Assembly (NCBI GenBank): GCA_010084195.1
Contig: RGPS01000019.1
Span: 1-47,099 of the forward strand
Direction: 5' to 3'
DNA from: Terriglobia bacterium
GTDB taxonomy: Bacteria; Acidobacteriota; Terriglobia; Bryobacterales; Bryobacteraceae
Length of the DNA stretch: 47,099 nt
The notes below the pieces were generated by a model. The model did no database searches and was not told where the DNA came from. It saw only the letters and a program-made list of their open reading frames with translations. The translations under genes were made by a program, and so were the position numbers. This document shows positions 3,126 through 35,211 of the stretch, one piece after another. How positions within the stretch are numbered: position 1 is the first letter of the stretch; each line of letters begins with the position of its first letter.

Positions 3126-3899
3126 ATGCACCCGATCGCCTTCCACCTTCGATTGATTCTGCTTGCAGTGATCGCCTCCCTCGCGGCCCTCGCTCAACCC
3201 CTTTCCATTGCCGCCCGTGATGCCTTCAACGTTGGTGTTCGCGAATTTCAGGCCGGGCAGTACCAGTCGTCAGCCAAGTCTTTCCAGAAGGCGGTGGAAA
3301 GGGCCCCCACTCTCCTGACTGCCCGGGTTTACCTCGCCACCGCGCTGGTCCACGCCTATGTCCCCGATGACACTTCCACCGAGAACGCGGAAGTGGGCAA
3401 AGCCGCTCTGGCCGCCTGCCAGGAGGTTCTGAATCGGGACGCAGCAAATGTTCCGGCCACTGACTCAATGGCGACCATCTACTTTCAAATGCGCGAGTTC
3501 GTCCGGTCCAGAGAGTGGAACCTGAAAGTCGTCGCGCTGGACCCCGGCAGCAAAAGCTCCCTCTACATGTTGGGTGCCATCTACCTGAGTGAGGTGGGAA
3601 ATGTCATCAGAGACGCCCGCAATTCGCTTGGTATGACAACGGCAGACCCCGGGCCCCTTCGCGACCTCGAGCTGCGCGAACAACTCCGGGTAAAACATCT
3701 GAAGAACATTAATGACGGGATCGAGTTTGAGCGAGCCTGTCTGGCCCTGGACGGCGAATATGCCCGCGCCATGATCACGCTTGCTGATCTCTTGCGGGTT
3801 CGTGCCGATCTGGGAGATGCCTCGGCCTACGCCTCCGATATGACCGAAGTGGCCGACCTGCTCACCCGCGCGGAAAAGGCTGTTGCCGCCGGGAAATAG
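3126..3899 (+). CDS. Secreted TPR-repeat protein, paralogue of the preceding gene
   Basis: 257-aa protein with a signal peptide (hydrophobic LRLILLAVIASLAALA, cleavage about residue 23) but no lipobox cysteine, so probably periplasmic. TPR-like helices follow (AFNVGVREFQAGQYQSSAKS; MREFVRSREWNLKVVALDP). It aligns over its whole length with the lipoprotein at 2181, suggesting a tandem duplication in which one copy lost lipidation. It is separated from the upstream operon by the terminator at 3061 and probably has its own promoter. Function unknown beyond protein interaction. Confidence 0.82.
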   Translation: MHPIAFHLRLILLAVIASLAALAQPLSIAARDAFNVGVREFQAGQYQSSAKSFQKAVERAPTLLTARVYLATALVHAYVPDDTSTENAEVGKAALAACQEVLNRDAANVPATDSMATIYFQMREFVRSREWNLKVVALDPGSKSSLYMLGAIYLSEVGNVIRDARNSLGMTTADPGPLRDLELREQLRVKHLKNINDGIEFERACLALDGEYARAMITLADLLRVRADLGDASAYASDMTEVADLLTRAEKAVAAGK

Positions 3900-3929
3900 C
3901 CAATAGCCGAACCGGCAACTGCAGTTTCC

Positions 3930-3935
3930 TAGAAT
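3930..3935 (+). promoter_or_regulatory. Putative -10 box TAGAAT before rel
   Basis: TAGAAT ends 6 nt before the GTG start at 3942, so transcription would begin at about the start codon. The same hexamer lies 5 nt before the DUF1844 gene on the other strand (36329-36334). Confidence 0.4.
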
Positions 3936-3941
3936 GAAAGG

Positions 3942-6203
3942 GTGGAGCCGACGGCAATACATTCGGAACCCTCACTCGACGGTATCGATGTCGCTGACCT
4001 GCCAGCGGTCTACGAAGGCCTTGCGCCGCCGCCGCCCGAACCCTCCACGCTGGCCGAATTGATTACTATCTTTCGCGAAGCTCGTCCGAAAGATGATTTT
4101 GCCGTCATCGAAAAAGCCTACGCTTTTGCCGAACGCTGCCACGCCGGGCAACTTCGCGCCTCGGGCGAACCCTACATCCTCCATCCTCTGGCCGTAGCCT
4201 GCATCCTCGCAGGTATGAGAATGGACGCCGTCAGCGTGGTCACCGGCCTGCTGCACGACGTCGTGGAAGATACCTCCGCCACCAGCGCTGAGGTCCAGAA
4301 AGCCTTCGGTGATGAAGTCGCGCGCTGTGTCGATGGCGTGACCAAACTGAGCAAGATCGAATTCTCATCTGCCGAGGAGCGGCAGGCCGAAAACTATCGC
4401 AAGATGCTCCTCGCGATGGTCAATGATGTCCGAGTCATCATCGTCAAACTGGCAGATCGACTCCACAACATGCGGACACTGGCCGCTCTCAGCCCCGAAC
4501 GCAGGGAGCGGATTTCCAAAGAGACGCTGGAGATCTTTGCTCCTATCGCCCACCGCCTCGGCATGGGCAAAGTCCGTGGAGAACTGGAGGACCTCGCGTT
4601 CCGGCACCGTGACTCCGAGGCCTTTGCGGAAGTCTCCCGAACGATCGACACGCAGCAAGCCGCCAATGAACGCTACATCGACAACATGCGAAAGACCGTC
4701 GAAGCGGAGTTGCGGCGTGAAGGCATTCCGGCGCGTGTCGAGGGGCGGGTTAAGCGCGCGTTCTCGGTCTACCAAAAGCTGATCCGGCAGAAGATATCCC
4801 TCGACCAGGTCTACGACATTCTTGCCCTCCGGATCATTACGGATTCCGTAAAAAACTGCTATGGTGCGCTCGGCGTCATCCACCACGAGTGGCGCCCGGT
4901 GCCCGGTCGGATCAAAGACTTCATCGCGATGCCGCGCCCGAACCTCTATCAGTCGCTGCACACGTCGGTGGTCGGGCCGGAGGGCAAGCACTGCGAGATC
5001 CAGATCCGGACGGAGGAAATGCACCGCATCGCAGAAGAAGGCATTGCGGCTCACTGGAAGTACAAAGAGGGGACCCGCGGTGCGCAGGATGACCAGCGTA
5101 TCGCCTGGTTGCGCCAGCTTGTCGAGTGGCAGCGCGACATGCAGGACTCCAACGACTTCACCTCCACCCTCAAGCTGGACCTTTTCCCCGAGGAAGTCTA
5201 CTGCTTCACACCTAAGGGCCGTGTCATCGTCCTTCCCACCGGCTCCAGCCCCATCGATTTTGCGTATGCGGTGCACTCTGAAGTCGGCAATACCTGTATC
5301 GGGGCCCGTATCAACGCCCGTATCGTGCCGCTGCGCAGTACGCTTCACAACGGTGATGTGGTCGATATCATCACCCAGCCCGGCCATCTGCCAGGCAAGG
5401 ACTGGCTGGGTTTTGCCAAGACCTCACGCGCCCGCAACAAAATCAAGCACATTATCAATACCAATGAGCGTGAGCGGGCAATCGAGATTGGCGAGAAGTT
5501 CCTCGAAAAAGAAGCCCGCCGCCTGGGTGTGTCACTGTCCCGTATTCCCAAGGCCGCTTTTGAAGCGGTTGCTGCCGAATATGGGATGAGCAAGCTGGAG
5601 GATCTCCATGCAGCTCTCGGCTACGGCAAGTTCTCCGCTCGCCAGGTCCTGCAGAAGTGTGTACCCGACCTGGCCCCGGAGCCTGCGCCCGCCCCCGTCG
5701 TCCCGGAGAATCCCCAGTCTCCCGCCCGCACCAGTGCCGCAGCAGATGACGCCGTTATCCGCGTCACGGGTATTGATGATGTGATGGTCTACCGGGCCAA
5801 ATGCTGCAACCCCATCAAGGGCGACTCCATCGTCGGCTATGTCACCCGGGGGAAGGGCATTGCGGTGCATTCCCGCGCCTGCAGCAATGTGCAGAACCTG
5901 ATGTACGAGTCCGAGCGCCGCATCGAAGTGGAATGGGAGCGCGCCGCCACCGAGGACTTCGCCGTGCATCTCGTCGTGAAGACGGATGACCGCCCGGGGC
6001 TCCTGCACCAGATCACCAGTATTCTCCACAACGAAAACAGCAATGTCCGCAGTCTGGAAGCCCGCACCGATTACTCTTCCAGTGGCGATTCTGCCTCCAT
6101 CGAAATGACTATCGACGTCCGCGACAAAAAACAGCTGGAAAAGCTGTGCGGCGCCATTCGCCGAATCTCCGGCGTTCGCGATGTCGAGCGAACCCACCAG
6201 TAA
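3942..6203 (+). CDS. rel: Bifunctional (p)ppGpp synthetase/hydrolase (Rel/SpoT)
   Basis: 753-aa long RSH enzyme that makes and degrades (p)ppGpp in the stringent response. Domains in order: HD hydrolase (about 55-200) with H105-D106 in LLHDVVEDT and the ADRLHNMRTL motif; synthetase (about 245-365) with RIKD at 323-326, the basic motif of bifunctional Rel rather than the acidic motif of RelA; TGS (about 405-465); a zinc-finger-like part with AKCCNPIKGD (about 620-650); and a C-terminal ACT domain (about 675-745). Hydrolase and synthetase residues both look intact. The start is GTG; an ATG 8 nt upstream is out of frame. As no second RSH gene is in view, it may be the only long RSH. Confidence 0.96.
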   Translation: MEPTAIHSEPSLDGIDVADLPAVYEGLAPPPPEPSTLAELITIFREARPKDDFAVIEKAYAFAERCHAGQLRASGEPYILHPLAVACILAGMRMDAVSVVTGLLHDVVEDTSATSAEVQKAFGDEVARCVDGVTKLSKIEFSSAEERQAENYRKMLLAMVNDVRVIIVKLADRLHNMRTLAALSPERRERISKETLEIFAPIAHRLGMGKVRGELEDLAFRHRDSEAFAEVSRTIDTQQAANERYIDNMRKTVEAELRREGIPARVEGRVKRAFSVYQKLIRQKISLDQVYDILALRIITDSVKNCYGALGVIHHEWRPVPGRIKDFIAMPRPNLYQSLHTSVVGPEGKHCEIQIRTEEMHRIAEEGIAAHWKYKEGTRGAQDDQRIAWLRQLVEWQRDMQDSNDFTSTLKLDLFPEEVYCFTPKGRVIVLPTGSSPIDFAYAVHSEVGNTCIGARINARIVPLRSTLHNGDVVDIITQPGHLPGKDWLGFAKTSRARNKIKHIINTNERERAIEIGEKFLEKEARRLGVSLSRIPKAAFEAVAAEYGMSKLEDLHAALGYGKFSARQVLQKCVPDLAPEPAPAPVVPENPQSPARTSAAADDAVIRVTGIDDVMVYRAKCCNPIKGDSIVGYVTRGKGIAVHSRACSNVQNLMYESERRIEVEWERAATEDFAVHLVVKTDDRPGLLHQITSILHNENSNVRSLEARTDYSSSGDSASIEMTIDVRDKKQLEKLCGAIRRISGVRDVERTHQ

Positions 6204-6226
6204 CCAGCCTGATCACAAACCTCCCT

Positions 6227-6595
6227 ATGTCTGATACCCGCGCCGCAATTCACGAAGCCACCCCCGAACACATCGCCATTTCGAAATCAAAGGGCATCAT
6301 CATCGACTGGAAAGGTGGGCACCAAAGTTCCTTCGATGTTGTCTACCTTCGTGACTGGTGCCCCTGTGCCGGCTGCACAGGGTCGCATGGCACCACGCCC
6401 CGGCCCAAAGCTTCCGCGTCCGCCCCCAACCCATTTCAGATGTTCCAGCCACGGCTGAAAATGCTTGCCGTGGAACCGGTTGGGAACTACGCGGTTCGGA
6501 TAGAATGGAGCGACGGGCACAACACCGGGATCTATTCGTGGACGCACCTCCGGACTGTTTGCCCCTGCGAGAGCTGTCAATCGGGAAAGGCCTGA
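6227..6595 (+). CDS. DUF971 (GBBH-like N-terminal domain) protein
   Basis: 122-aa protein matching the DUF971 family, whose fold is the N-terminal domain of gamma-butyrobetaine hydroxylase. Two cysteine pairs stand out: CPCAGC near residue 46 and CPCESC near the C-terminus, plus the paired motif WKGGHQSSFDVVYLRDWCP. These could bind zinc or an Fe-S cluster. The ATG at 6227 was chosen because upstream sequence in this frame lies inside rel and is not conserved-looking. It ends 5 nt before the response regulator. DUF971 proteins are often near Fe-S cluster or Mrp-type genes, but none is visible here, so its job is open. Confidence 0.85.
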   Translation: MSDTRAAIHEATPEHIAISKSKGIIIDWKGGHQSSFDVVYLRDWCPCAGCTGSHGTTPRPKASASAPNPFQMFQPRLKMLAVEPVGNYAVRIEWSDGHNTGIYSWTHLRTVCPCESCQSGKA

Positions 6596-11884: not shown

Positions 11885-11914
11885 TTGTTTCCCACAATTC
11901 TCCCCCCTTTGCCG

Positions 11915-11923
11915 TGTTATCCT
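11915..11923 (+). promoter_or_regulatory. Putative extended -10 box (TGTTATCCT) before the NHL gene
   Basis: The hexamer TATCCT (11918-11923) has a TG one base upstream. It ends 9 nt before the likely TTG start at 11933, so the message would be nearly leaderless. No convincing -35 is seen. Confidence 0.45.
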
Positions 11924-11932
11924 CGACTTGGA

Positions 11933-14900
11933 TTGACTGCCCGGCCACGCTTCGCTTATCTTGCTCTGTTCCTGGCTTTTCAGAACGTTGCCTCGCCGCA
12001 GGCTCTGTTCCGTAAGCCCGTTAAAGTACTGGGAGATCCCCAATACGTCGGAACTGCTTCTAACCCTTTCCTGATTACCAATAACGGTCCCAACTGGACC
12101 GAAGGCCGGGAATTCAGTTTCCCCCTGGGCATCGCGATCGACAACTCGGTGTCTCCTCCCAATATTTACATCGCTGATGCCGGAAATAGCCGTGTCCTGG
12201 GTTTTCGCTATGGCACCCAGCTAAAAGCCGGCGCAACAGCCGATATCGTCCTTGGACAAGTTGATGTGTTCGCCAATCTGGCCCAGGGCGGCAGCAATCG
12301 CGCTACCGGCATGAACCAGCCCACCGGCCTCGCCTGTGACAGCCAGGGCAACTTGTATGTCGCCGACACCGGCAACAACCGGGTGCTCCGTTACCCGAAG
12401 CCCCTGTCACAGCCCTCCGGCGTCGCCTTCCCTGATCTCGTGCTGGGGCAGACTTCACTGTCCGGTAAGGGCGCAAACTCGGGAGGGGTCAGCGCCACTA
12501 CCCTTGCCCTCGCGGTGAGTACGGTTTCTCATGCCGGCCTGGCCTTCGATTCTTCCGGCAACCTCTGGGTGGCCGACAGCGCCAACAACCGTGTCCTGCG
12601 CTACCCTTTGGCTCTGTTGCAGAAGGGGCAAAACGGCCCCGCTGCCGATCTGGTGATCGGGCAAAACGATTTCGCCAGTCGCGCCGGGGCTACCTCCGTC
12701 ACCAGCAAGACCAATCTCAATACCCCGTTTGGCATCAGCTTTGATTCGGCTGGCCGCCTTCTTGTTACGGATTCCGGGCGCCGCGTCGTGGTCTATCCCG
12801 CCGGTGTTACCACCAACGGCGTTGCCATCCGCATCATGGGACTTGACGCCACGCTCAATGCCTCCTCGCCCGCCTCAGCCGTTTCGCTGAGCACCACTTT
12901 CGGTGTTGCCGGAACCGCTGCCGGCATTGTTGTCGCGGATTCCTCCAACAACCGCCTCCTCGTGTTCCCCTCGGTCGAGGCCTGGCCTGCCGAAGGAACT
13001 CAGTTATCGCCCACTGCTACCGCCGTCATCGGCCAGACCGATTTCACCAGCATCAAGGCGAATCAGGGGCAGGGCGACGCTTCTTCCGGCGCCTTCAATT
13101 TCCCTTCGCAGATCGCATTCTCGGGTTCCGAACTCTTTGTGGCCGATTCCCAGAACAACCGCGTCCTCGTTTTTAACGCCGGACCGTCGGGCATCTCCGC
13201 CACCGCCTCTCGCGTCATCGGCCAACTTGACTTCCCGTACTCGGCCCCGAACCTCGTCGAAGGTCATGAATTTCAGCTTGCCGCCGGTGTCAGCACGACC
13301 ACCGCTTTCGGCAGCGCCATTCTCGATCAATCAGTGAGTCCCCCTCGCCTCTGGGTTGCCGACTCCCTGAACAACCGCATCCTTGGGTTCAAAGACTTCT
13401 CGAAAGCGAAGAATGGCGATAAGGCTGATATCGTCATTGGCCAGCCCGACCTGCTGCGCACCCTCATCAACTATCCGTCGAACGAGGCCTCGCAGCCCAA
13501 TGCACAGGGGCTCCGTTTTCCCACCGGCCTCACCCTGGATTCAGCCGGCAATCTCTTTGTAGCCGACACCGGCAACTCCCGCATCCTGCGCTTCCCGGCA
13601 CCCTTTGATTCCGGCAAAAAGGCCCTGCAGAGCGCCGACCTGGTTCTCGGGCAACGCAACTTTACCTCCACTGTCACCGATCCCTCTGACCGCACTATGA
13701 GCGCGCCCTTTTCGCTGGTCCTTACAGCCGACGCTGCCAATGCGACGGTGCCGGGCAGCGGCTTTCTGATCGCTACCGATAGTGTTCACAACCGGGTTCT
13801 TTTCTTTCCCAAACCCTTCACCAGCGGGATGGCGGCCACCAAACTCCTGGGTTCCCTGAACTTCTTCAATACGACCCCAGGTAGTGCGGACGCGCCCCGC
13901 TTCAACTCGCCCCATGGGGTGGCGGTGGATCCTCAGGATCGCGTTATTCTTGTCGATTCCGGCAATCGCCGTGTTCAGATTTTCAACAAAGCTTCCACCA
14001 TCAACACCTACGATACGCCGCCCATCAGCATCTCGATTCCCGGCGGTCTGCCTCTTGGCGTCACCGCCTCATCCAGTGGCTTTTGGGTCTCCGACAACCA
14101 GACCAACCAAATCCTCCACTACCCGACCGTAGACCAGTTGCCGCTGAAGAGTAATGCAACGGACGGGTTCCTCCAGGTCAACTCGCCCCTCACAGTGTTT
14201 CAGGATTCGTTCAGTAATCTGCTGGTGGCCGATGCCATCCAGCGGGTGGTTTACTACGCACCCCAACTGACCGTGGTGAGCGGCGCCAATTACGCGAATC
14301 GCCCGCTCACCGCCGGTTCCATTGCCGCAGCTTTCCCCACCGTTACCACCAACATGCTGGCTGGCGCCACGGCGGCGGCCACGGCGGTCCCCCTCCCCTC
14401 CACGCTGGCCGATACCCAGGTTCTGGTGAATGGCATCCCCGCTCCGCTCTTCTTCGTCTCGCCTGCCCAGGTGAATCTGGTTTTGTCCAACCTGCTGCCC
14501 TCTGGCGGCACGGCTGACGTTCAGGTCTTTCACCCCTCTACGGGGCAGGTCGCCGGAAGCACCGAACTACAGTTGGCATCGGCCGCTCCCGCGCTGTTCA
14601 CCGCCAATTCGTCCGGCGGGGGCCAGGTGGTGGCCTACAACGCCGCCGATGGCTCCCTCAACTCCAACACGAATGCCGTTGCGCGAGAGCAGTACATCGT
14701 CCTCTACGGCACTGGGTTGGGGCCGGTTCCCAATGCGCCGCCAGACGGTGAGGCCCCCAAAGGGATTACTCAGGCCCCCACCCGCCCCCTGGTTGTTCTC
14801 GGGGCTGCAATCACCGCCCTCCCCGATGAGAATATTCAATACTCGGGACTCGCGCCGGGGCTGGTTGGCGTGTGGCAACTCAACCTCCTCATCCCCTCCA

Positions 14901-15004
14901 ATGCCCAGACCGGAGCCTCTGTGCCGATCCGCATCTTCCAGAACAGCATTACCAGCGTCGATCCGGCTTCCACCGCCGGGGCCACCACTATCGCTATCAA
15001 GTAA
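11933..15004 (+). CDS. Secreted NHL-repeat beta-propeller protein with Solibacter-type C-terminal domain
   Basis: About 1023 aa. A signal peptide (RFAYLALFLAFQNVASPQA) is followed by many NHL blades with recurring motifs such as YVADTGNNRVLRYP and VLGQ-DF. The region is internally doubled: the NWTEGREF block near 12093 matches the NLVEGHEF block near 13250, so there are probably two propellers. The last 230 residues (from about ANYANRP) form the TIGR03437-type domain shared with the kelch protein at 31522. The frame has no ATG; TTG at 11933 gives a clean signal peptide, while TTG at 11885 is possible but lies right after the previous stop. Probably extracellular; ligand unknown. Confidence 0.85.
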   Translation: MTARPRFAYLALFLAFQNVASPQALFRKPVKVLGDPQYVGTASNPFLITNNGPNWTEGREFSFPLGIAIDNSVSPPNIYIADAGNSRVLGFRYGTQLKAGATADIVLGQVDVFANLAQGGSNRATGMNQPTGLACDSQGNLYVADTGNNRVLRYPKPLSQPSGVAFPDLVLGQTSLSGKGANSGGVSATTLALAVSTVSHAGLAFDSSGNLWVADSANNRVLRYPLALLQKGQNGPAADLVIGQNDFASRAGATSVTSKTNLNTPFGISFDSAGRLLVTDSGRRVVVYPAGVTTNGVAIRIMGLDATLNASSPASAVSLSTTFGVAGTAAGIVVADSSNNRLLVFPSVEAWPAEGTQLSPTATAVIGQTDFTSIKANQGQGDASSGAFNFPSQIAFSGSELFVADSQNNRVLVFNAGPSGISATASRVIGQLDFPYSAPNLVEGHEFQLAAGVSTTTAFGSAILDQSVSPPRLWVADSLNNRILGFKDFSKAKNGDKADIVIGQPDLLRTLINYPSNEASQPNAQGLRFPTGLTLDSAGNLFVADTGNSRILRFPAPFDSGKKALQSADLVLGQRNFTSTVTDPSDRTMSAPFSLVLTADAANATVPGSGFLIATDSVHNRVLFFPKPFTSGMAATKLLGSLNFFNTTPGSADAPRFNSPHGVAVDPQDRVILVDSGNRRVQIFNKASTINTYDTPPISISIPGGLPLGVTASSSGFWVSDNQTNQILHYPTVDQLPLKSNATDGFLQVNSPLTVFQDSFSNLLVADAIQRVVYYAPQLTVVSGANYANRPLTAGSIAAAFPTVTTNMLAGATAAATAVPLPSTLADTQVLVNGIPAPLFFVSPAQVNLVLSNLLPSGGTADVQVFHPSTGQVAGSTELQLASAAPALFTANSSGGGQVVAYNAADGSLNSNTNAVAREQYIVLYGTGLGPVPNAPPDGEAPKGITQAPTRPLVVLGAAITALPDENIQYSGLAPGLVGVWQLNLLIPSNAQTGASVPIRIFQNSITSVDPASTAGATTIAIK

Positions 15005-26701: not shown

Positions 26702-27460
26702 CTATTTCAATCGCGCCAAACTCGCCTGCCGGAACAGCAGCCCTGACGCAGTGAATAGTGCCACAAAAATACCGTGCAGCACTGCCACACTCCGCATCGG
26801 CCCCGAAGGTGCGTCCCACGGCAGCGTCACGGCAACCACTCCCACCAAAGCCAGCGCTGCAGCCATCGCGAACAACGTTCGAGCCATCCCCCGCGCTTCC
26901 AGTCGCACCAGCCACGCCCCCACGCCCCCCACAGCGAGCACCCCGAAATAGACGAAGTTCACCGGATTGTCCGACTCCGAGAGATGGACCATGCTCCCCC
27001 ATCCCAGCACGAATCCAGCCACCAGCGCCAATCCCACACCTGCCTTGTACGCCCACGCACCCATATGTCTCGCGATCAGTGCATATGCCAGCGCCGTTCC
27101 GAAGAACATAATATACGCGAAGACAAAGCCCCCCACACCCCAGTGCCAATCGTCCACCATCTGCGATGCCACCAGCGGCACCATCAAAAGGCCCAGCGCC
27201 ACCAGAGCCGCCCGCAGCAACGTGTTTCCCGTTTGTGACATATGACTCACGTTCTCCCTGACAATTCCCACCGACGTCTCAAAAAAGATCCGCAGCGAGA
27301 GCCCGAATACGTCCCGCCCGGCGTCCCGGTATTCCCGGCACAGATCGTGAAATGTCTGCACCATCCCCTCGCCGAACCGCTCCCGGAACGGCTGTGGATA
27401 CAACCGCAGCAGCCGCGAATACCACGTCCGGTAGCGCTGGCCCGCCCCGTTAGTGGCCAT
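26702..27460 (-). CDS. PadR-linked multi-pass membrane protein (permease-prefix-like N-terminus)
   Basis: 252 aa. The first 50 residues (YRTWYSRLLRLYPQPFRERF, then GEGMVQTFHDLC) match the cytoplasmic prefix found on acidobacterial permeases encoded next to PadR regulators. About six hydrophobic helices follow, with no MacB-like periplasmic domain and no ATPase partner. It starts at the ATG complementary to 27458-27460, overlapping the padR end by 11 nt, so the two are co-transcribed. Role unknown; an exporter fragment or stress sensor is possible. The upstream extension of this frame is inside padR and is not used. Confidence 0.75.
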   Translation of the reverse strand: MATNGAGQRYRTWYSRLLRLYPQPFRERFGEGMVQTFHDLCREYRDAGRDVFGLSLRIFFETSVGIVRENVSHMSQTGNTLLRAALVALGLLMVPLVASQMVDDWHWGVGGFVFAYIMFFGTALAYALIARHMGAWAYKAGVGLALVAGFVLGWGSMVHLSESDNPVNFVYFGVLAVGGVGAWLVRLEARGMARTLFAMAAALALVGVVAVTLPWDAPSGPMRSVAVLHGIFVALFTASGLLFRQASLARLK

Positions 27461-27797
27461 ACGACAAACGTCCTTCCGCCACAGCCACCACCCCGCGATA
27501 ACGTCCCAGCTCCGCTTCCAGCGCCGCACGCCCCGCACCTGTAAGCGCGTAGTAGATTCGCCGCTCGTCGTCCATCTCCGGATCAACCCGCTTATCGCTC
27601 TCCCGAATCAGCCCGGCCTCCATCATCCGTCCCATTGACCCATACAGAGTCCCCGGGCCCATCTTCGTCTTGCCCTGCGAGTCCGCTTCTACCTGTTTCA
27701 TGATTCGGTACCCGTGCAGATCCCCTGCTGAAAGCGCCAGCAGGATGTGCAGCACTGCGGGAGTCAGCGGAGCCTGGACTGTGTTCATCAGCGCCAT
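27450..27797 (-). CDS. PadR-family transcriptional regulator
   Basis: 115-aa winged-helix repressor. The PadR core is clear: LTPAVLHILLALSAGDLHGYRIMK, seen as two adjacent blocks, then GPGTLYGSMGRMMEAGLI and RRIYYALTGAGRAALE. Starts at 27797 or, nine bases later, at 27788 are both possible. A perfect palindrome with a strong promoter lies just upstream, so it very likely represses itself and the overlapping membrane gene. The PadR ligand cannot be told. Confidence 0.92.
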   Translation of the reverse strand: MALMNTVQAPLTPAVLHILLALSAGDLHGYRIMKQVEADSQGKTKMGPGTLYGSMGRMMEAGLIRESDKRVDPEMDDERRIYYALTGAGRAALEAELGRYRGVVAVAEGRLSYGH

Positions 27798-27804
27798 GAT
27801 TAAA

Positions 27805-27832
27805 AATATATCCGTAACGGATACATTGTCAA
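27805..27832 (-). promoter_or_regulatory. padR promoter with embedded 15-bp operator
   Basis: On the minus strand, -35 TTGACA (27832-27827), 16-nt spacer and -10 TATATT (27810-27805). The palindrome TATCCGTAACGGATA (27809-27823, central A) fills the spacer. Transcription should start about at the ATG of 27797, giving a leaderless message or a short leader for 27788. The palindrome also lies 63 nt before the divergent gene at 27886. Confidence 0.8.
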
Positions 27833-27885
27833 GGCCCGCCGCCTGGCACGCTGAACCGGAACAGCTGCCGCTATATGATGTCCAC

Positions 27886-29025: not shown

Positions 29026-31159
29026 AGCTCTTTTTCCGCGCCGTGACGCGGATGGTATTTCCCTGACCCGCATCAATCAGATGCGCGCCGAATGCACCAA
29101 TCTCTCCAATCCGGACCTCCGGCAGGCCTATAACACCGCCCCCGACGTTGAAACTGTCATCGCCCTGGCCGCCGTTGCGGCCGAACGCACACTGGGCCAG
29201 CGAATGTTCGATGTCCAGCTCCGCGGCGCTCTCGCCCTCTGCCGCGGCAGTATTGCAGAGATGCAAACCGGCGAGGGCAAGACCCTTACAGCTGTCCCCG
29301 CTGTCCTCTGGCTCGCCCGATCCAGACAGGGTTTACACGTGATGACCGTCAACGACTATCTCGCCACCCGAGATGCCGAATGGATGGGCCCCGTCTACCG
29401 CCTCCTCGGCCTCACTTGCGGTAGCATTCGCCAGGGTCTCTCCCCCGAAGCCCGCCGCGCCGCCTACGCCTGCGACATCACCTACGCCACTGCCAACGAA
29501 ATCGGCTTCGACCATCTCCGCGACCAGGTCGCGCTCCATCCTGACGACCGTGTCCAGCGTGGTTTCGCCGCAGCTCTCGTCGACGAGGCCGATTCCATCC
29601 TCATCGATGAAGCCCGCATCCCCCTCGTCATCGCCGGAGGTGAAGAAACCGAAGGCGACCTCGTTCTCCGCGCCGACCGTCTGGTCCGCGAATTCGCCAA
29701 AGGTCTCGACTACCGAATCGAGGAGCACGGGCGCAACGTCACCCTCACCGACGACGGCATTCACCACGCCGAAACCCGTCTCGGCTGCGGCAACCTTTTC
29801 GCCGAAGAAAACCTCGAAGCCCTCACCACCGTGCAGGACGCCCTCCATGCCCACGCTCTCCTGCATCGCGACATCGACTACCTCATCAAAGACGGCCAAA
29901 TCGAATCTGTGGATGAATTCAAAGGCCGCATCGCGCAGGACCGTCGCTGGCCCGCCGGCCTCCACACTGCCGTGGAAGTAAAGGAAGCCGCCGCCGTCAA
30001 ATCACAGGGCCGCATCTTCGGCTCCATTACCCTCGAAAACCTCCTCGCCCTCTACTCACATCTCTGCGGCATGACCGGCACCGCAGCCACCCAGGCGAGC
30101 GAATTCGCCGAGATCTTCAACCTGGCCGTCGAGGTCATCCCGCCCAATCGGCCCATGATCCGCGTCGACTATCCCGACTCGGTCTACCGCACCAAAAACG
30201 AGAAACACTACGCCCTCCTCGAAGAAATCCGAACCGTGCATGCCACCGGTCGTCCCATCCTCGTCGGTACCGCTTCCGTTGCCGAATCCGAACACCTCAG
30301 CTGGCTGTTAGGGTGCATATCTGGTAATGACGTGCCCCACAACGTCCTCAACGCCCGCGACGAAGAGCGCGAAGCCACGCTGATTGCTAACGCCGGAGAG
30401 CGCGGGGCCGTCACCATCTCCACCAACATGGCCGGACGGGGCACCGACATCTGCCTCGGCCCTGGAGTCGCCGAACTCGGCGGACTCCACGTTATCGGCA
30501 CCAACCGCCACGAAGCCCGTCGCATCGATTTTCAGCTCCGGGGCAGGGCCGGCCGACAGGGCGACCCTGGCACCTCCCGCTTCTTCGTCTCGCTCGAAGA
30601 TGACATCGTGCAGCGCTACGGCCAGGCCCTCAGCGGCGGCGAGCACTTCATTCCGGCGGACCAGATGCAGGCTCTCGCCACGCCCGAAGGCGTCCAGCGA
30701 GTCGTCGAGGGTAAGAACCTCGAAATCCGCCTCTTCCTCCGCAAATACGAAAGTTCCGTCGAAGGCCAGCGCCAAATGCTTGCCACCCGCCGCGAAGAGA
30801 TCCTGCATTCCGACCTCCCACCCTTCGAACGAATGGTCTCTCTCCGCACCATCGACGACGAATGGTCGAACCACCTCAGCGAAGTCACCGAACTCCGCTC
30901 GGGAATCCAGTGGGTAGCCTGGGGCGGTCGCGATCCGCTCCACGAATACCTCCGCCTCGTCCACCGCATGTATGAGGAGATGATGGCTGGCCTCGACGCC
31001 GAGATCGAACGCCGCATCGAGGAAGCCCGCGAAACAGGCCTCGACCCGTCTCAGCGGGGCTCCACCTGGACCTACCTCACCACCGATAATCCCTTCGGCA
31101 GCCTGACCGACCGAATCCGTAAAGGCCTGGTGGCGAAGGCAAAATCCCTGTTCTCCTGA
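29009..31159 (+). CDS. SecA-like preprotein translocase ATPase, short C-terminus (possible SecA2)
   Basis: 716 aa, shorter than the usual 840-950 of housekeeping SecA. NBD1 has the Walker A motif GEGKT at 88-92 and D192-E-A-D195 followed by DEARIPLVIAG. A preprotein cross-linking domain follows (about 220-350), then NBD2 with TNMAGRGTDI and the arginine-rich RGRAGRQGDPG. Helical scaffold parts end near residue 670. The usual C-terminal linker and zinc-binding CxCxxxxxC/H motif are absent; instead the protein ends in a tail rich in G, T, K and aromatic residues (WTYLTTDNPFGSLTDRI, then KGLVAKAKSLFS). It may be an accessory SecA2 or the sole SecA in reduced form. Two extra copies of this tail follow downstream. 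Confidence 0.88.
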   Translation: MNRFFKALFPRRDADGISLTRINQMRAECTNLSNPDLRQAYNTAPDVETVIALAAVAAERTLGQRMFDVQLRGALALCRGSIAEMQTGEGKTLTAVPAVLWLARSRQGLHVMTVNDYLATRDAEWMGPVYRLLGLTCGSIRQGLSPEARRAAYACDITYATANEIGFDHLRDQVALHPDDRVQRGFAAALVDEADSILIDEARIPLVIAGGEETEGDLVLRADRLVREFAKGLDYRIEEHGRNVTLTDDGIHHAETRLGCGNLFAEENLEALTTVQDALHAHALLHRDIDYLIKDGQIESVDEFKGRIAQDRRWPAGLHTAVEVKEAAAVKSQGRIFGSITLENLLALYSHLCGMTGTAATQASEFAEIFNLAVEVIPPNRPMIRVDYPDSVYRTKNEKHYALLEEIRTVHATGRPILVGTASVAESEHLSWLLGCISGNDVPHNVLNARDEEREATLIANAGERGAVTISTNMAGRGTDICLGPGVAELGGLHVIGTNRHEARRIDFQLRGRAGRQGDPGTSRFFVSLEDDIVQRYGQALSGGEHFIPADQMQALATPEGVQRVVEGKNLEIRLFLRKYESSVEGQRQMLATRREEILHSDLPPFERMVSLRTIDDEWSNHLSEVTELRSGIQWVAWGGRDPLHEYLRLVHRMYEEMMAGLDAEIERRIEEARETGLDPSQRGSTWTYLTTDNPFGSLTDRIRKGLVAKAKSLFS

Positions 31160-31184
31160 ACCATGAAATACGGAGTGCGAATAC

Positions 31185-31313
31185 GTGACAGGCCTCGATC
31201 CATCGCGGCGCGGCTCCACATGGACGTACCTCACCACCGACAACCCCTTCGGCAGCCTCACCGACCGCATCCCCAAAGGCTTGGTAGCCAAGGCCAAATC
31301 CCTCTTCTCCTGA
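31185..31313 (+). pseudogene. Second copy of the secA-like 3' end
   Basis: From 31188 the DNA encodes the same final 41 residues as the SecA-like protein, ending in its own TGA at 31311. Only two residues differ (Q to R and R to P), while about 15 codons differ silently. The reading frame differs from that of the gene itself, and a GTG at 31185 could start a 42-residue peptide. It is probably the remnant of a former second gene copy, but a translated micro-ORF is possible. Confidence 0.8.
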
Positions 31314-31322
31314 ATCGCGAGA

Positions 31323-31481
31323 CGCGACGCCGAGATCGAACGGCGCGTCAACGAAACCGGCATCGCTCCGTCACAACGTGGCTCCACCCGGACCTATCTG
31401 ACCATCGACAATCCCTTCCGAAGCCTGACCGACCGCATCAGCAAAGGCCTGGTGGCGAAGGCAAAATCATTATTCGCTTAA
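31323..31481 (+). pseudogene. Third, more diverged copy of the secA-like 3' end
   Basis: Encodes RDAEIERRVNETG and then the same tail as the SecA-like protein, ending in TAA at 31479. It extends further 5' than the second copy, lacks two or three codons there and carries about nine amino-acid changes, including the loss of tryptophan in the WTYL motif. A stretch of 26 nt in the AKAK region (about 31443-31468) is identical to the first copy, unlike the second. No start codon with a ribosome site is seen. Confidence 0.78.
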
Positions 31482-31521
31482 GGCGGGAATAATAGCCGGG
31501 GCGTGGGGATGTATATGCCGT

Positions 31522-33174
31522 ATGCTCATCCGCGCCAGCTTCCTCCTGACCTTCGCCTGCTGCCTCGTCGCGCAGACGCCTCAACTCTCGCTCAGTAAAG
31601 TTCCGGTCAACTCCGGCCCAACCGGCCGCGTTGACTCGCCCCTGGCCTTCGACCCAATCGGCAACCAGTTGCTGGCCTTCGGCGGCCAGGATTCCAGCGG
31701 AGATCGCAATGATCTTTGGAGCTTCAGCCTTACCAATCAGCAGTGGACTCAACTCCAGCCCACGGGAACCGCTCCCGCACCTCGCCATGGCCACACCCTT
31801 GTCTTCGATCCTGTCCGCCGCCGCGTTGTCACCTTTGCCGGCGAGGCCAGAGGCTTCTTTTCCGACGTCTGGGCCTACGACATCGCCACCAACGCCTGGA
31901 TCAGACTAGCCGCCGACGGTGCCGGACCCTCCTCTCGTTACGGCCACTCTGCCGTCTACGACCCAAAAACAGAGCGTATGGTCATCTCTCACGGCTTCAC
32001 CACGCAGGGCCGTTTCGACGACACCTGGGCCTTCAGTCTGAAATCAAATTCGTGGCAGGACCTGAATCCGCGAGGCAGTCGCCCCCTCAAGCGCTGTCTC
32101 CAGCACGCAGCCATTGATGAAACCGGCGGCATCATGTACCTCTTCGGCGGCTGCGCCAGCGGCTTTGGCCCCTGCCCTCTCGATGACCTCTGGGCCCTCG
32201 ATCTCACCACCAACGTCTGGCAGGAAATGGGCGGTTTTCCACGTCCTGCCGGTCGCACCCATAATGGCCTCGCCTTCGATGCAGCCCGTCGTCGCCTTGT
32301 GGTCTATGGCGGAGCCGGCAGCGCCGGCCTTCTCAACGATTACTGGGAGTTTGACCCCGCCACCAGAAACTGGAGCAGTCCGGCCATCTCAAACATGGCC
32401 ACCGCACGGTCCCGACACCAAGGTGTCTATGCCGCAGGAGATATCTACTTTTTTGGCGGCAGTAACCTGCCCGACCTGCTCCGCCTGCGAACCCTCGGCC
32501 CCCGAATTTCCTCCGTCCGCAACGCCTTTAGTGCCGCCGAAGGTCCAGTTGCACCCGGCGCAGTCATCGCCCTCTATGGTGAGGATCTGGGTCCCGCCAC
32601 GGGTGTCGCCGCATCTCTCTCGGAAGGCCGCCTCCCCACCACCCTCGGCAGTATCTCCGTCACAGTCAATGGCCTCGCCGCCCCCCTGTTCTACACCCAA
32701 AGCGGCCAAATTAACCTACAGATTCCCTATGAGGTGCAAGGCACTACAGCCACCCTGCAGGTCCGCTCCGGCACCGCGCTGATGGCCTCCACAACGCTCC
32801 CGCTCGCCCCAACCGCCCCAGGCCTTTTCACCGGAGTCTTTGGGCCCACATTTGTTCCCAACAGCAACGATGCCCCCGTAAGTCCCGGTTCCGTCATCGT
32901 GCTCTTCGCCACCGGGCACGGCCAGACCATGCTCCCGCAAAGGACCGGCCAGGTCGCGGATTCCTCGCTCTCCACCGTACCTGCAGCTACGGTTCAGCTC
33001 AACGTGGGCAGTGCCGCAGCGGCTCTGCTCTACGCAGGGCCCCTCCCCGGAGCCGTGGGCGTGATGCAAATCAACGCCCAACTGCCCGCAGGCGTGGAAA
33101 AAGGAAATGCCGTGCCGGTGACACTAAGTGTCGGCGGCACGGCATCTTCCTCAGTTCCGATTGTTATTCGTTAG
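31522..33174 (+). CDS. Secreted kelch-repeat protein with Solibacter-type C-terminal domain
   Basis: 550 aa. Signal peptide (MLIRASFLLTFACCLVAQ), then six kelch-like blades marked by LLAFGGQD, VVTFAGEA, MVISHGFT, MYLFGGCA, LVVYGGAG and IYFFGGSN, forming a six-bladed propeller (about 30-325). The last 215 residues (from VRNAFSAAEGPVAPGAV) are the same TIGR03437-type domain as in the NHL protein at 11933. It is probably secreted and may bind surface or extracellular ligands. A weak TATATG box is 4 nt from the ATG. Its stop is one base from the stop of the convergent aldolase gene. Confidence 0.85.
   Translation: MLIRASFLLTFACCLVAQTPQLSLSKVPVNSGPTGRVDSPLAFDPIGNQLLAFGGQDSSGDRNDLWSFSLTNQQWTQLQPTGTAPAPRHGHTLVFDPVRRRVVTFAGEARGFFSDVWAYDIATNAWIRLAADGAGPSSRYGHSAVYDPKTERMVISHGFTTQGRFDDTWAFSLKSNSWQDLNPRGSRPLKRCLQHAAIDETGGIMYLFGGCASGFGPCPLDDLWALDLTTNVWQEMGGFPRPAGRTHNGLAFDAARRRLVVYGGAGSAGLLNDYWEFDPATRNWSSPAISNMATARSRHQGVYAAGDIYFFGGSNLPDLLRLRTLGPRISSVRNAFSAAEGPVAPGAVIALYGEDLGPATGVAASLSEGRLPTTLGSISVTVNGLAAPLFYTQSGQINLQIPYEVQGTTATLQVRSGTALMASTTLPLAPTAPGLFTGVFGPTFVPNSNDAPVSPGSVIVLFATGHGQTMLPQRTGQVADSSLSTVPAATVQLNVGSAAAALLYAGPLPGAVGVMQINAQLPAGVEKGNAVPVTLSVGGTASSSVPIVIR
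33107..33145 (-). terminator. Terminator of the aldolase gene inside the kelch coding region
   Basis: A perfect 10-bp stem (33107-33116 with 33136-33145) and an inner 5-bp stem (33120-33124 with 33128-33132, TAA loop). On the minus strand it is followed by a T-rich run (33106-33098, TTCCTTTTT) and lies 31 nt past the aldolase stop. The same bases encode the last part of the kelch protein on the plus strand. Confidence 0.65.
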
Positions 33175-33175
33175 C

Positions 33176-34177
33176 TTACGCGCCGACCTTCGGACGCCAG
33201 CTCTTCGCACCCTGGATCGCTTCGTTCACGGCAGCAATGTTCTTCACGCCCTGATCCAGCATCCAGGCTTCCAGCGCTTCCGCACCCTGCGAGCCGAAGA
33301 TCTTCACACCATCCAGCCACGTCGCGCGCCCACACAGAACGCCCGAGTAGTCCGTGCCGCTTTCGGCTGCATACTTCAGGTTTTCAATGAAGACTTCGTT
33401 CGTCACACCGGCGCTCAAATAAATGAACGGCAACGTGGTCACCGAGGCCGCATCCCGGAAGAGGGCCAGGGCTTCATCCTTCGTGTAAGCGAACTCGCCG
33501 CCCTTAAACGCCGCGCTGCCTTCCACGTACGCGGGGTTGATCGGCACTTCCACTTTCAGAACGTCCACCTTGTACTGGGGCTTGGAGAATTCAGCCATCG
33601 AACCCTTCACCACAGACGGCTTCTTCTTCGCGTAATCCAGGCTCTTTTCACCCTTGCCGTTTTCGTCGTAACCGATAAATTCCAGGAAGAACGGAATGTC
33701 ATACGCTTCACACTCAGCGCCAATCCGCTCAATGAAGGCGTGCTTGATGTCATTCACATCCGCCGGGGAGAACGGGGTGTAATACAGCAGAATCTTCACA
33801 GCGTCCGCGCCCATTTCCTTGATCCGCTTCACGGAAAGGTGGGGCAGCAGATCCGGCATGCGGTGCTCGTCGGTGGCATCGTAGCCGGTTTCTTCATAGG
33901 CCAGCAACAGGCCGGCGTTTGCCGAACGGGCGGCGGCTGCGGGCAGACCAAATTCCGGATCCAGCAGGATTGCGCTGGCATGCGGCGTCAGCACGCGCGA
34001 CACAACAATCTTGAAGTCTTCCATTTCCTTCGGCGTGACTTCAGACTCCGGGATGCCCTTAGCGGCGGCAATGCCCTTCTGTAGGCTGCCACGCTGATCC
34101 ATCGCCGCGGCGGCGATCACGCCGGCCTCGTTCGAGAGGGCGTTCATATGCTTCAGTTTGCCTGGGGAAAGGCTCAT
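33176..34177 (-). CDS. lacD: Class I aldolase of the LacD (tagatose 1,6-bisphosphate aldolase) family
   Basis: 333-aa TIM-barrel Schiff-base aldolase. Motifs include the N-terminal AAAAMDQRGSLQKGI, AVKILLYYTPF and VLKVEVPINPAYVEG, the last holding the likely catalytic lysine, with LPFIYLSAGV and GRATWLDGV near the C-terminus. LacD cleaves tagatose or fructose bisphosphate to triose phosphates; as no lac or sugar operon is near, a general glycolytic or gluconeogenic role is plausible. The ATG complementary to 34175-34177 follows AGGAGAAC; the long upstream extension of the frame lacks a ribosome site. Its terminator lies inside the opposite gene. Confidence 0.85.
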   Translation of the reverse strand: MSLSPGKLKHMNALSNEAGVIAAAAMDQRGSLQKGIAAAKGIPESEVTPKEMEDFKIVVSRVLTPHASAILLDPEFGLPAAAARSANAGLLLAYEETGYDATDEHRMPDLLPHLSVKRIKEMGADAVKILLYYTPFSPADVNDIKHAFIERIGAECEAYDIPFFLEFIGYDENGKGEKSLDYAKKKPSVVKGSMAEFSKPQYKVDVLKVEVPINPAYVEGSAAFKGGEFAYTKDEALALFRDAASVTTLPFIYLSAGVTNEVFIENLKYAAESGTDYSGVLCGRATWLDGVKIFGSQGAEALEAWMLDQGVKNIAAVNEAIQGAKSWRPKVGA

Positions 34178-34257
34178 GTAGGTTCTCCTGTGACTAAAAT
34201 TAATGACTGCTGGATTTGGAATACGAGGGATGAAACTCCAATTATCCCACGCGCATT

Positions 34258-35211
34258 TTATGCAGACGCAGCAAAGCGGCGGTGGAAGCGTCGCGCGCTG
34301 CCCACATCCCGCAAAATCTGACTCCGCAGCGCCTCCGGCGAAGCGAACTTGCGCTCCGCCCGAACCCACGAAAGGAACTCCACTTCGAGCCGCGTCGGGG
34401 CCGCTGCCGGAGCCTCTCCCAGCAAAAATGTCTCTACCGTAACAGCAGCGCCCTCGAATGTCGGCCGCATTCCCACATTCGTAATCGAGGGCACAGAAGG
34501 TCCGGTTCCATTCGCCCGCGTGCGCGTCACATAGACCCCGTGGCGTGGCAACAATTCGTTTTCTGCCGCCAGATTCAAAGTCGGCACGGTCTGCTTTGAG
34601 CCAATCCCGAAGCCCGTTACCACCCGACCCTCTAACGCAAATGGCGCACCCATCAGGCGGCAGGCCTGCGAAACCTTACCTTCGCCAAGCAGCGTTCGAA
34701 TCCCCGTACTGCTGATGCGCTGTCCTGTCGAGCGCATGCCCGCATCAATATCGGCGATGGCGTCCACTGCGAACCCCAGCTGCACCCCTAATTCCCGCAG
34801 CTTCGCAATGTCGCCCGACTGCCGATGCCCAAAGCGGAAATCCTCGCCCGTCATCACCACCTTCGCGTTCAGAGTTTGCCGCAACACCCGCTCAGCAAAC
34901 TCCTCCGGACTCAACCCGGCAAACTCCGCAGAAAATGGAAACAGCAGAACTTCTTCCACCCCCGCCTGCTCCAGGCGCCGCAGTTTCTGCGCCGTCGTGT
35001 TGATCAACAGCGGCGCCTTTGCCGGTGCCAGAACCTTCGCCGGGTGCGGATCAAAGGTCAGCACCGCAGGCACAAGTCCCAATTCCCGCGACCGCGCAAT
35101 CACCCGTCGCAGAATCGCCTGATGCCCCAAATGTACGCCATCAAAGTTGCCGATGGTGACCACCGTCCCCGCACTTTGCGGGACGGCTGTCAGAGAACGA
35201 GTTACCTTCAT
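34258..35211 (-). CDS. ribF: Bifunctional riboflavin kinase/FAD synthetase
   Basis: 317-aa enzyme that makes FMN and FAD. The N-terminal adenylyltransferase domain has TIGNFDGVHLGHQAIL and VLTFDPHPAKVL (about 15-60) and GEDFRFGH (about 121). The C-terminal kinase domain has GIGSKQTVPTLNL (about 200) and the NVGMRPTF motif. The usual kinase motif is PTANL; here it reads PTLNL, keeping the metal-binding threonine. It overlaps the upstream MBL-fold gene by four bases (ATGA), so the two are coupled. Confidence 0.93.
   Translation of the reverse strand: MKVTRSLTAVPQSAGTVVTIGNFDGVHLGHQAILRRVIARSRELGLVPAVLTFDPHPAKVLAPAKAPLLINTTAQKLRRLEQAGVEEVLLFPFSAEFAGLSPEEFAERVLRQTLNAKVVMTGEDFRFGHRQSGDIAKLRELGVQLGFAVDAIADIDAGMRSTGQRISSTGIRTLLGEGKVSQACRLMGAPFALEGRVVTGFGIGSKQTVPTLNLAAENELLPRHGVYVTRTRANGTGPSVPSITNVGMRPTFEGAAVTVETFLLGEAPAAAPTRLEVEFLSWVRAERKFASPEALRSQILRDVGSARRFHRRFAASA

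Follow-up and report, generated by a model that had tools for sequence, protein, structure and literature searches.

Two diverged, body-less copies of a gene's 3' end behind an intact SecA2-like gene in a Bryobacteraceae genome, possibly relics of replaced alleles

We analysed a stretch of 47,099 nucleotides from a Terriglobia bacterium (an uncultured soil member of the Acidobacteriota, family Bryobacteraceae; contig RGPS01000019.1 of assembly GCA_010084195.1), here called the window, which contains an intact gene for a SecA2-like (accessory SecA) protein followed by two further copies of its 3' end (Table 1). Eight NCBIfam models matched the gene, all of them SecA or SecA2 models and every one below its cut-off. 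A repeat search of the window returned the end of the gene at 31034-31160, 31188-31314 (86%) and 31356-31482 (81%), and no other direct repeat of the window is longer; the 47-kb stretch has three direct-repeat families of at least 50 nt in all. A triplication of the 3' end had been claimed from the DNA letters and their open reading frames (the sequence-only reading), and its coordinates and counts are borne out by the repeat search and by a codon comparison. Copies 1 and 2 indeed differ mostly silently: 17 codons are changed, 15 of them silently and two with replacement of the residue, which corresponds to 18 nucleotide changes (16 silent). Between copies 1 and 3, 18 codons differ, 11 silently (the stop codon among these) and seven with replacement. 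All three copies keep a stop codon (TGA, TGA and TAA, in order). Copies 2 and 3 measure 126-168 nt, have diverged from copy 1 by 14-18%, and are set apart by gaps of 28 nt and then at most ~12 nt.

Table 1. Positions of the SecA2-like gene, the copies of its 3' end and the genes downstream in the window
Feature	Position	Strand	Remarks
SecA2-like (accessory SecA) gene, intact, 716 aa	29009..31159	+	Pfam SecA_DEAD, P-loop_SecA, SecA_PP_bind, SecA_SW
Copy 1, final 126 nt of the SecA2-like gene	31034-31159	+	
Spacer between copies 1 and 2, 28 nt	31160..31187		GGAG at 31172-31175; GTG at 31185 in frame with copy 2
Copy 2, residues 676-716 and TGA of a secA allele, without body	31188..31313	+	Q682R and R704P relative to copy 1
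Copy 3, decayed 3' end of a secA allele	31314..31481 (sure from ~31325, perhaps from 31314)	+	W687R, T692I, G697R and others
Kelch-repeat protein with Soli_cterm (TIGR03437) C-terminal domain	31522..33174	+	Between secA and aldolase; not there in G003, G015 and G016
Tagatose-bisphosphate-type aldolase	33176..34369	-	Downstream neighbour of secA in G003, G015 and G016

Copy 3 is longer at its 5' side, as had been noted, with similarity from about 31314/31325 to 31481. In the repeat search its upstream extension begins at 31314 (77% over 48 nt), and 5' of the shared 126 nt it holds 14 codons versus 17 in copy 1. The stop codon of copy 2 falls in the reading frame of copy 3, and the similarity of copy 3 may start directly after that stop (I-A-R-R-D-A-E versus M-A-G-L-D-A-E); taken alone, the first 12 nt show no significant similarity (P 0.86). 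The 28-nt spacer in turn does not significantly resemble the native sequence upstream (P 0.89). Copies 1 and 2 have common edge states, ACAGGCCTC at the start and TCC TGA at the end, and given these copy 2 may derive from a close allele or paralogue. A 26-nt stretch is identical in copies 1 and 3, which had been taken to suggest gene conversion. The run exists, but conversion is not needed to explain it: a shuffle test gave P 0.06, and most of the states that copies 1 and 3 have in common within the run are also found in relatives, so that they look ancestral and copy 2 appears to have changed.

The C-terminal tail of these SecA2-like proteins (window 31034-31156, loci L112-L141) carries a strongly conserved motif, RG[AS]TWTYLTTDxPFG, which falls outside the matched SecA_SW stretch; residues W687, T688 and D693 are invariant in an alignment of 21 proteins extending to Clostridium and Sporomusa. 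No chain was matched when solved structures were searched with the tail profile. In the structure predicted with AlphaFold2, a helix (643-676) is followed by a short strand (687-689) and a second helix (699-715); the tail has pLDDT <60 from residue 681, with no docking site readable, and the predicted terminal helix, in which R704P lies, has a pLDDT of about 43.

The nearest relatives among the genomes searched, G003 and G015, belong to the same genus as the window genome, and their SecA2-like proteins are 87-88% identical to that of the window at the amino acid level. In both, the gene order is carboxylase, ywiC, secA, aldolase (reverse strand) and ribF (reverse strand); the stop codons of secA and aldolase lie 61 and 66 nt apart, with no second tail, and this gap contains a G+C-rich inverted repeat and a T run. 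A third relative, G016, has one secA end followed by aldolase and ribF, as far as its contig shows. In the window the interval between secA and aldolase is instead occupied by the two tails and the kelch gene, the stop codon of which directly adjoins that of the aldolase gene. DNA similarity to the relatives picks up again at about 33173, and the outer parts of the locus are syntenic with theirs. The inverted repeat of the relatives is absent from both ends of the window insert, and a simple consensus scan of 31000-31650 found neither a promoter, sigma-70-like ones included, nor a terminator. Of 101 family genomes searched for the kelch protein, 13 (its own included) gave a match at E 1e-40 or better, with 43-50% identity outside its own genome, and at none of the 12 foreign loci fetched does a secA gene lie within about 1.5 kb of the kelch gene. 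The Soli_cterm (TIGR03437) domain ends two proteins of the window, those encoded at 11885-15004 and at 31522-33174. A second non-shared stretch near secA, of ~1.1 kb in the carboxylase/ywiC interval (about 26710-27870), is without DNA match in G003 or G015.

The silent distance of copies 2 and 3 from copy 1 is like that of orthologues of neighbouring species. Over the same 41 codons, dS from copy 1 amounts to 0.79 for copy 2 and 0.69 for copy 3, and to 0.66, 0.87 and 1.24 for G003, G015 and G016, respectively; dN is 0.023 between copies 1 and 2 and 0.082 between copies 1 and 3. The sequence-only reading had taken the silent divergence as a sign of past selection as protein, and for copy 2 this stands. 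In a codon model with its own omega, copy 2 received a value of 0.01-0.02, and omega 1 was rejected on all three topologies tried (P 9.5e-5, 1.3e-3 and 4.2e-5), these P values being rough as the branch length of copy 2 hit the upper bound. When changes on the copy 2 branch were assigned by eye with the relatives and copy 3 as outgroups, seven of nine were silent (with transition weights from 1 to 4, the binomial P under neutrality is 0.002-0.005). Of these nine states, four are also present in one other row of the codon table. A strict count of the changes unique to copy 2 (n=5; three silent, two replacing) allows neutrality (P 0.13-0.18). Because the codon model rejects neutrality on its branch, we consider copy 2 to have been part of a translated sequence during most of its separate history. 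For copy 3, the omega of 0.10-0.17 is indistinguishable from 1 on two of three topologies and differs on one. Residues L678, D679, W687, T692, G697, R704 and S716 are changed in copy 3, of which W687 is invariant in both the tail alignment and the 21-protein alignment, and G697 in the tail alignment. Thus copy 3, having no body and having lost conserved residues, bears the marks of a gene relic and is best seen as one, once constrained and now decayed; copy 2 is likewise without body but has only two replacements.

Trees of the tail resolve little, being built on 126 nt with bootstrap values of 48-72%. In the best maximum likelihood tree (123 nt of tail), copies 1 and 2 form a pair (48%) and copy 3 groups with G015 (72%), and the KH, SH and AU tests rejected none of six topologies tried; the RELL bootstrap set alone omits one. 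Quartet counts in the tail (5:3 versus 7:3) do not separate copies 1 and 3 by affinity. Over the whole secA gene, quartet sites favour G015 by 32:11 before residue 311 and G003 by 22:41 after it (permutation P 0.0012). This mosaic fits a replacement of the gene's 3' part in the window genome; recombination in G015, which is the outlier in secA residues 541-660, could also produce the signal. Among the neighbouring genes, ywiC, ribF, a metallo-hydrolase gene and the trigger factor gene are closer to G015 by DNA identity (quartet sites of ribF favour G015 by 39:18), the carboxylase gene is slightly nearer to G003 (86.0 versus 84.6% for G015), and the aldolase gene is equivocal. A search of 19 genomes of the genus revealed no donor whose tail matches; leaving aside the genome of the window itself, 31160-31521 is matched best in this set by the secA ends of G015 and G003 (85 and 84%).

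The SecA2-like gene is patchily distributed in the family. Searched with a tail profile at E 0.01, 90 of 237 family genomes gave a match, in some cases to a fragment only; in the order as a whole, 93 of 257 genomes did so at E 0.001. Two tail matches on one contig were found only on the contig of the window among the 237 family genomes, many of which are fragmented assemblies in which a split tandem could be missed; even at E 0.1, in a set of 93 sequences with a tail match (the window and 92 loci, several overlapping in place), no second match was found outside the window and the loci of its own genome. Searching the same 237 genomes, most of them in fragmented assemblies, for tandem full-length secA paralogues returned none. 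In three genomes (G127, G159 and G074) there are two SecA2-like genes or tails, each on a contig of its own, so the gene can occur twice without a visible tandem.

The search for the tail alone gave body-less tails in three other genomes (G226, G196 and G254), none of them at a contig end; a tail of G179 that does lie at a contig end was left out of this count. The orphan tail of G226 (L174, G226:C56, about 6118-6308; 192 nt) has a broken frame and is 81% identical to the secA end of the same genome. It lies directly behind a pair of genes for a ribbon-helix-helix (CopG-type) and a PIN-domain protein, a toxin-antitoxin pair of the VapBC type according to a Pfam scan of the two ORFs; its contig has no genes in common with the secA neighbourhoods of six related loci. 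In G196 (L171, G196:C30, about 3527-3997) the tail sits beside inverted, shortened secA pieces of a shattered pseudogene, with residues 218-309 and 492-522 on one strand and the tail on the other. The match in G254:C148 covers 15 residues (E 4.7e-5). As controls we used the 55 residues adjoining the tail. This segment gave no body-less fragment among the matches listed, whether it was used as a single sequence (E 1e-9; matches in 69 of 237 genomes) or as a profile (E 1e-4; matches in 224 of 237, mostly to ordinary SecA genes); the rows with short open frames were at contig ends or within a longer secA match. G196 and G254 had one match each in the profile control, the number expected from ordinary SecA, and G214 and G164 one extra match each in the body-segment control. 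As the profile matches listed end at about 1e-11, the comparison is fair only above that level, where three tails (two in the window, one in G226) stand against no body fragment among the matches listed.

Considering all of this, the reading we favour, with about even confidence, is that copies 2 and 3 represent the fossilised 3' ends of further alleles of this SecA2-like gene, left by recombinational replacement, and do not go back to a standing tandem array. Allele replacement is the simplest account because of the ortholog-like distance, the translated past of copy 2, the decay of copy 3 and the lack of a tandem stage in the relatives. The following course of events is inferred, as are the origin of the alleles and the mechanism of joining. 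DNA with the secA allele of a related species would have entered the cell and undergone homologous recombination upstream of or inside secA, its far end being joined illegitimately, slightly inside the 3' end of the resident gene. The incoming gene with its stop codon and a few bases would then have become the new working copy, and the last codons of the former resident would have remained behind. Two such rounds would give the order seen here, with the working gene followed by a younger relic (copy 2) and an older one (copy 3). The kelch gene would have arrived at the same spot, in the same or a separate event, and displaced the intergenic terminator-like sequence. Our estimate includes the variant that the tails were imported as the edge of a kelch-bearing fragment. 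In either case the relics would be inactive and the intact SecA2-like gene would do the work.

The steps proposed resemble known processes. In in situ (xenologous) gene displacement, a term used in PMC3087516 with reference to Omelchenko et al. (2003), the allele of a relative replaces the resident gene while the surrounding order is kept. The orders carboxylase-ywiC-secA and aldolase-ribF are common to the window, G003 and G015; as to an ancestry different from that of the neighbours, secA is mosaic, the neighbours themselves not being uniform. What differs is that here the end of a gene that would have been replaced seems to have been left behind. In homology-facilitated illegitimate recombination, one homologous anchor is combined with an illegitimate join at the other end; De Vries and Wackernagel are said to have described it in 2002 for natural transformation. 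It would yield a junction like that of the window, although here neither a donor nor microhomology at the junctions was found. Merodiploids made by transformation, as presented in PMC3784515, are partial tandem duplications of about 100-900 kb that let one copy change freely, whereas the tails of the window are shorter by orders of magnitude and already diverged.

The sequence-only reading had preferred a different history, in which three tandem full-length paralogues arose in the lineage and diverged under selection before the bodies of the second and third were deleted. This would explain the silent divergence and the kept stop codons equally well, and the two accessory secA genes or ends in G127, G159 and G074 speak for it, although these lie on different contigs. 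Nevertheless, two independent body deletions would be needed, each stopping within the last 41 to 58 codons, and all tandem stages would have to be unsampled: no second tail shares a contig in any other of the 237 family genomes, many of them fragmented, G003 and G015 have a single gene beside the aldolase gene, and G016 has a single secA end. We therefore regard this history as unlikely; the body-less tails do look like relics, as had been supposed, but an origin from tandem paralogues is unsupported. Absence of the copies from close relatives was one of two observations named beforehand as speaking against old paralogues, and it was made; the other, a lack of excess silent change, was not, since the excess is real.

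A bolder version of the favoured reading would make the secA 3' end a preferred breakpoint, at which each gain, loss or replacement leaves a tail, so that tails form a layered record of successive alleles; copy 2 might then be reused as a free C-terminal peptide. Body-less tails occur in four of the 237 family genomes, versus none of the adjacent body segment among the matches listed, and we consider this version rather improbable.

A contig that joins the tails of related species co-occurring in a metagenome is a little more doubtful still. The genome consists of 628 contigs and is presumably a metagenome bin, and copies 2 and 3 resemble alleles of other species. Such a chimera fits poorly with the separate spacer between copies 1 and 2, the changes of its own that every copy has, the synteny of the outer locus and the body-less tails in three other assemblies. 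A scan of genome contigs, from which very near records may be missing, found no independent record of the tail arrangement.

That the tail is translated as a micro-ORF had been offered as an alternative. Copy 2 might encode a peptide of 42 amino acids (GTG start with GGAG nine bases upstream), a SecA2 C-terminal module acting separately, e.g. by regulating the motor or serving as a leader of the kelch gene. Its start and ribosome site are plausible, it is constrained, and it spans the part of the predicted SecA structure that follows the last long helix. However, no other intact stand-alone tail ORF turned up among the 237 family genomes, the arrangement is not present in the nearest relatives, the scan of 31000-31650 found no sigma-70-like promoter, and R704P falls within the poorly modelled terminal helix. 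In copy 3, invariant residues are lost, and no in-frame ATG, GTG or TTG precedes residue 708. A translated micro-ORF is thus highly improbable.

Even less credit can be given to a 3' end duplicated twice in place, with extra copies that drifted neutrally. The head-to-tail layout with short spacers is what a gene end duplicated in tandem would look like, the best tree pairs copy 1 with copy 2, which have edge states in common, and neither the strict count for copy 2 nor the codon model for copy 3 on two of three topologies is at odds with near-neutral change. Against this, the codon model rejects neutrality of copy 2 on every topology tried, the wider count on its branch does so too, and the silent distance equals that between species.

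Some genomic islands integrate in the 3' ends of genes and place copies of the host gene's end beside the inserted DNA, and a site-specific element that integrated into the secA 3' end and rebuilt it, as islands do at tRNA genes and some protein genes, would account for diverged gene-end copies adjoining the inserted kelch DNA and for the exact run shared by copies 1 and 3, the size of which we take to be possible for an attachment core; but the two occurrences of this run are separated by nothing more than the remainder of copy 1, all of copy 2 and the beginning of copy 3, which leaves no room for an element, no integrase family was found among 16 window ORFs scanned with Pfam, and the tail is absent from the viral contigs, plasmids and phages searched, so that this explanation is scarcely credible. 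In the search of mobile elements as carriers of the tail, viral contigs gave nine pattern matches, none of which was confirmed, and plasmids and phages gave no match.

Taken together, the tails are most likely what a known process left behind, and not an element of a new kind; nothing new follows for the function of the SecA2-like gene. A literature search found no description of leftover gene tails of this form, which is not proof that none exists. If replacement of alleles is the true origin, short diverged tails behind intact genes would record earlier alleles in their order and mark the points at which the replacing DNA was joined. Gene replacement between species would then be readable from single genomes, those of uncultured bacteria included.
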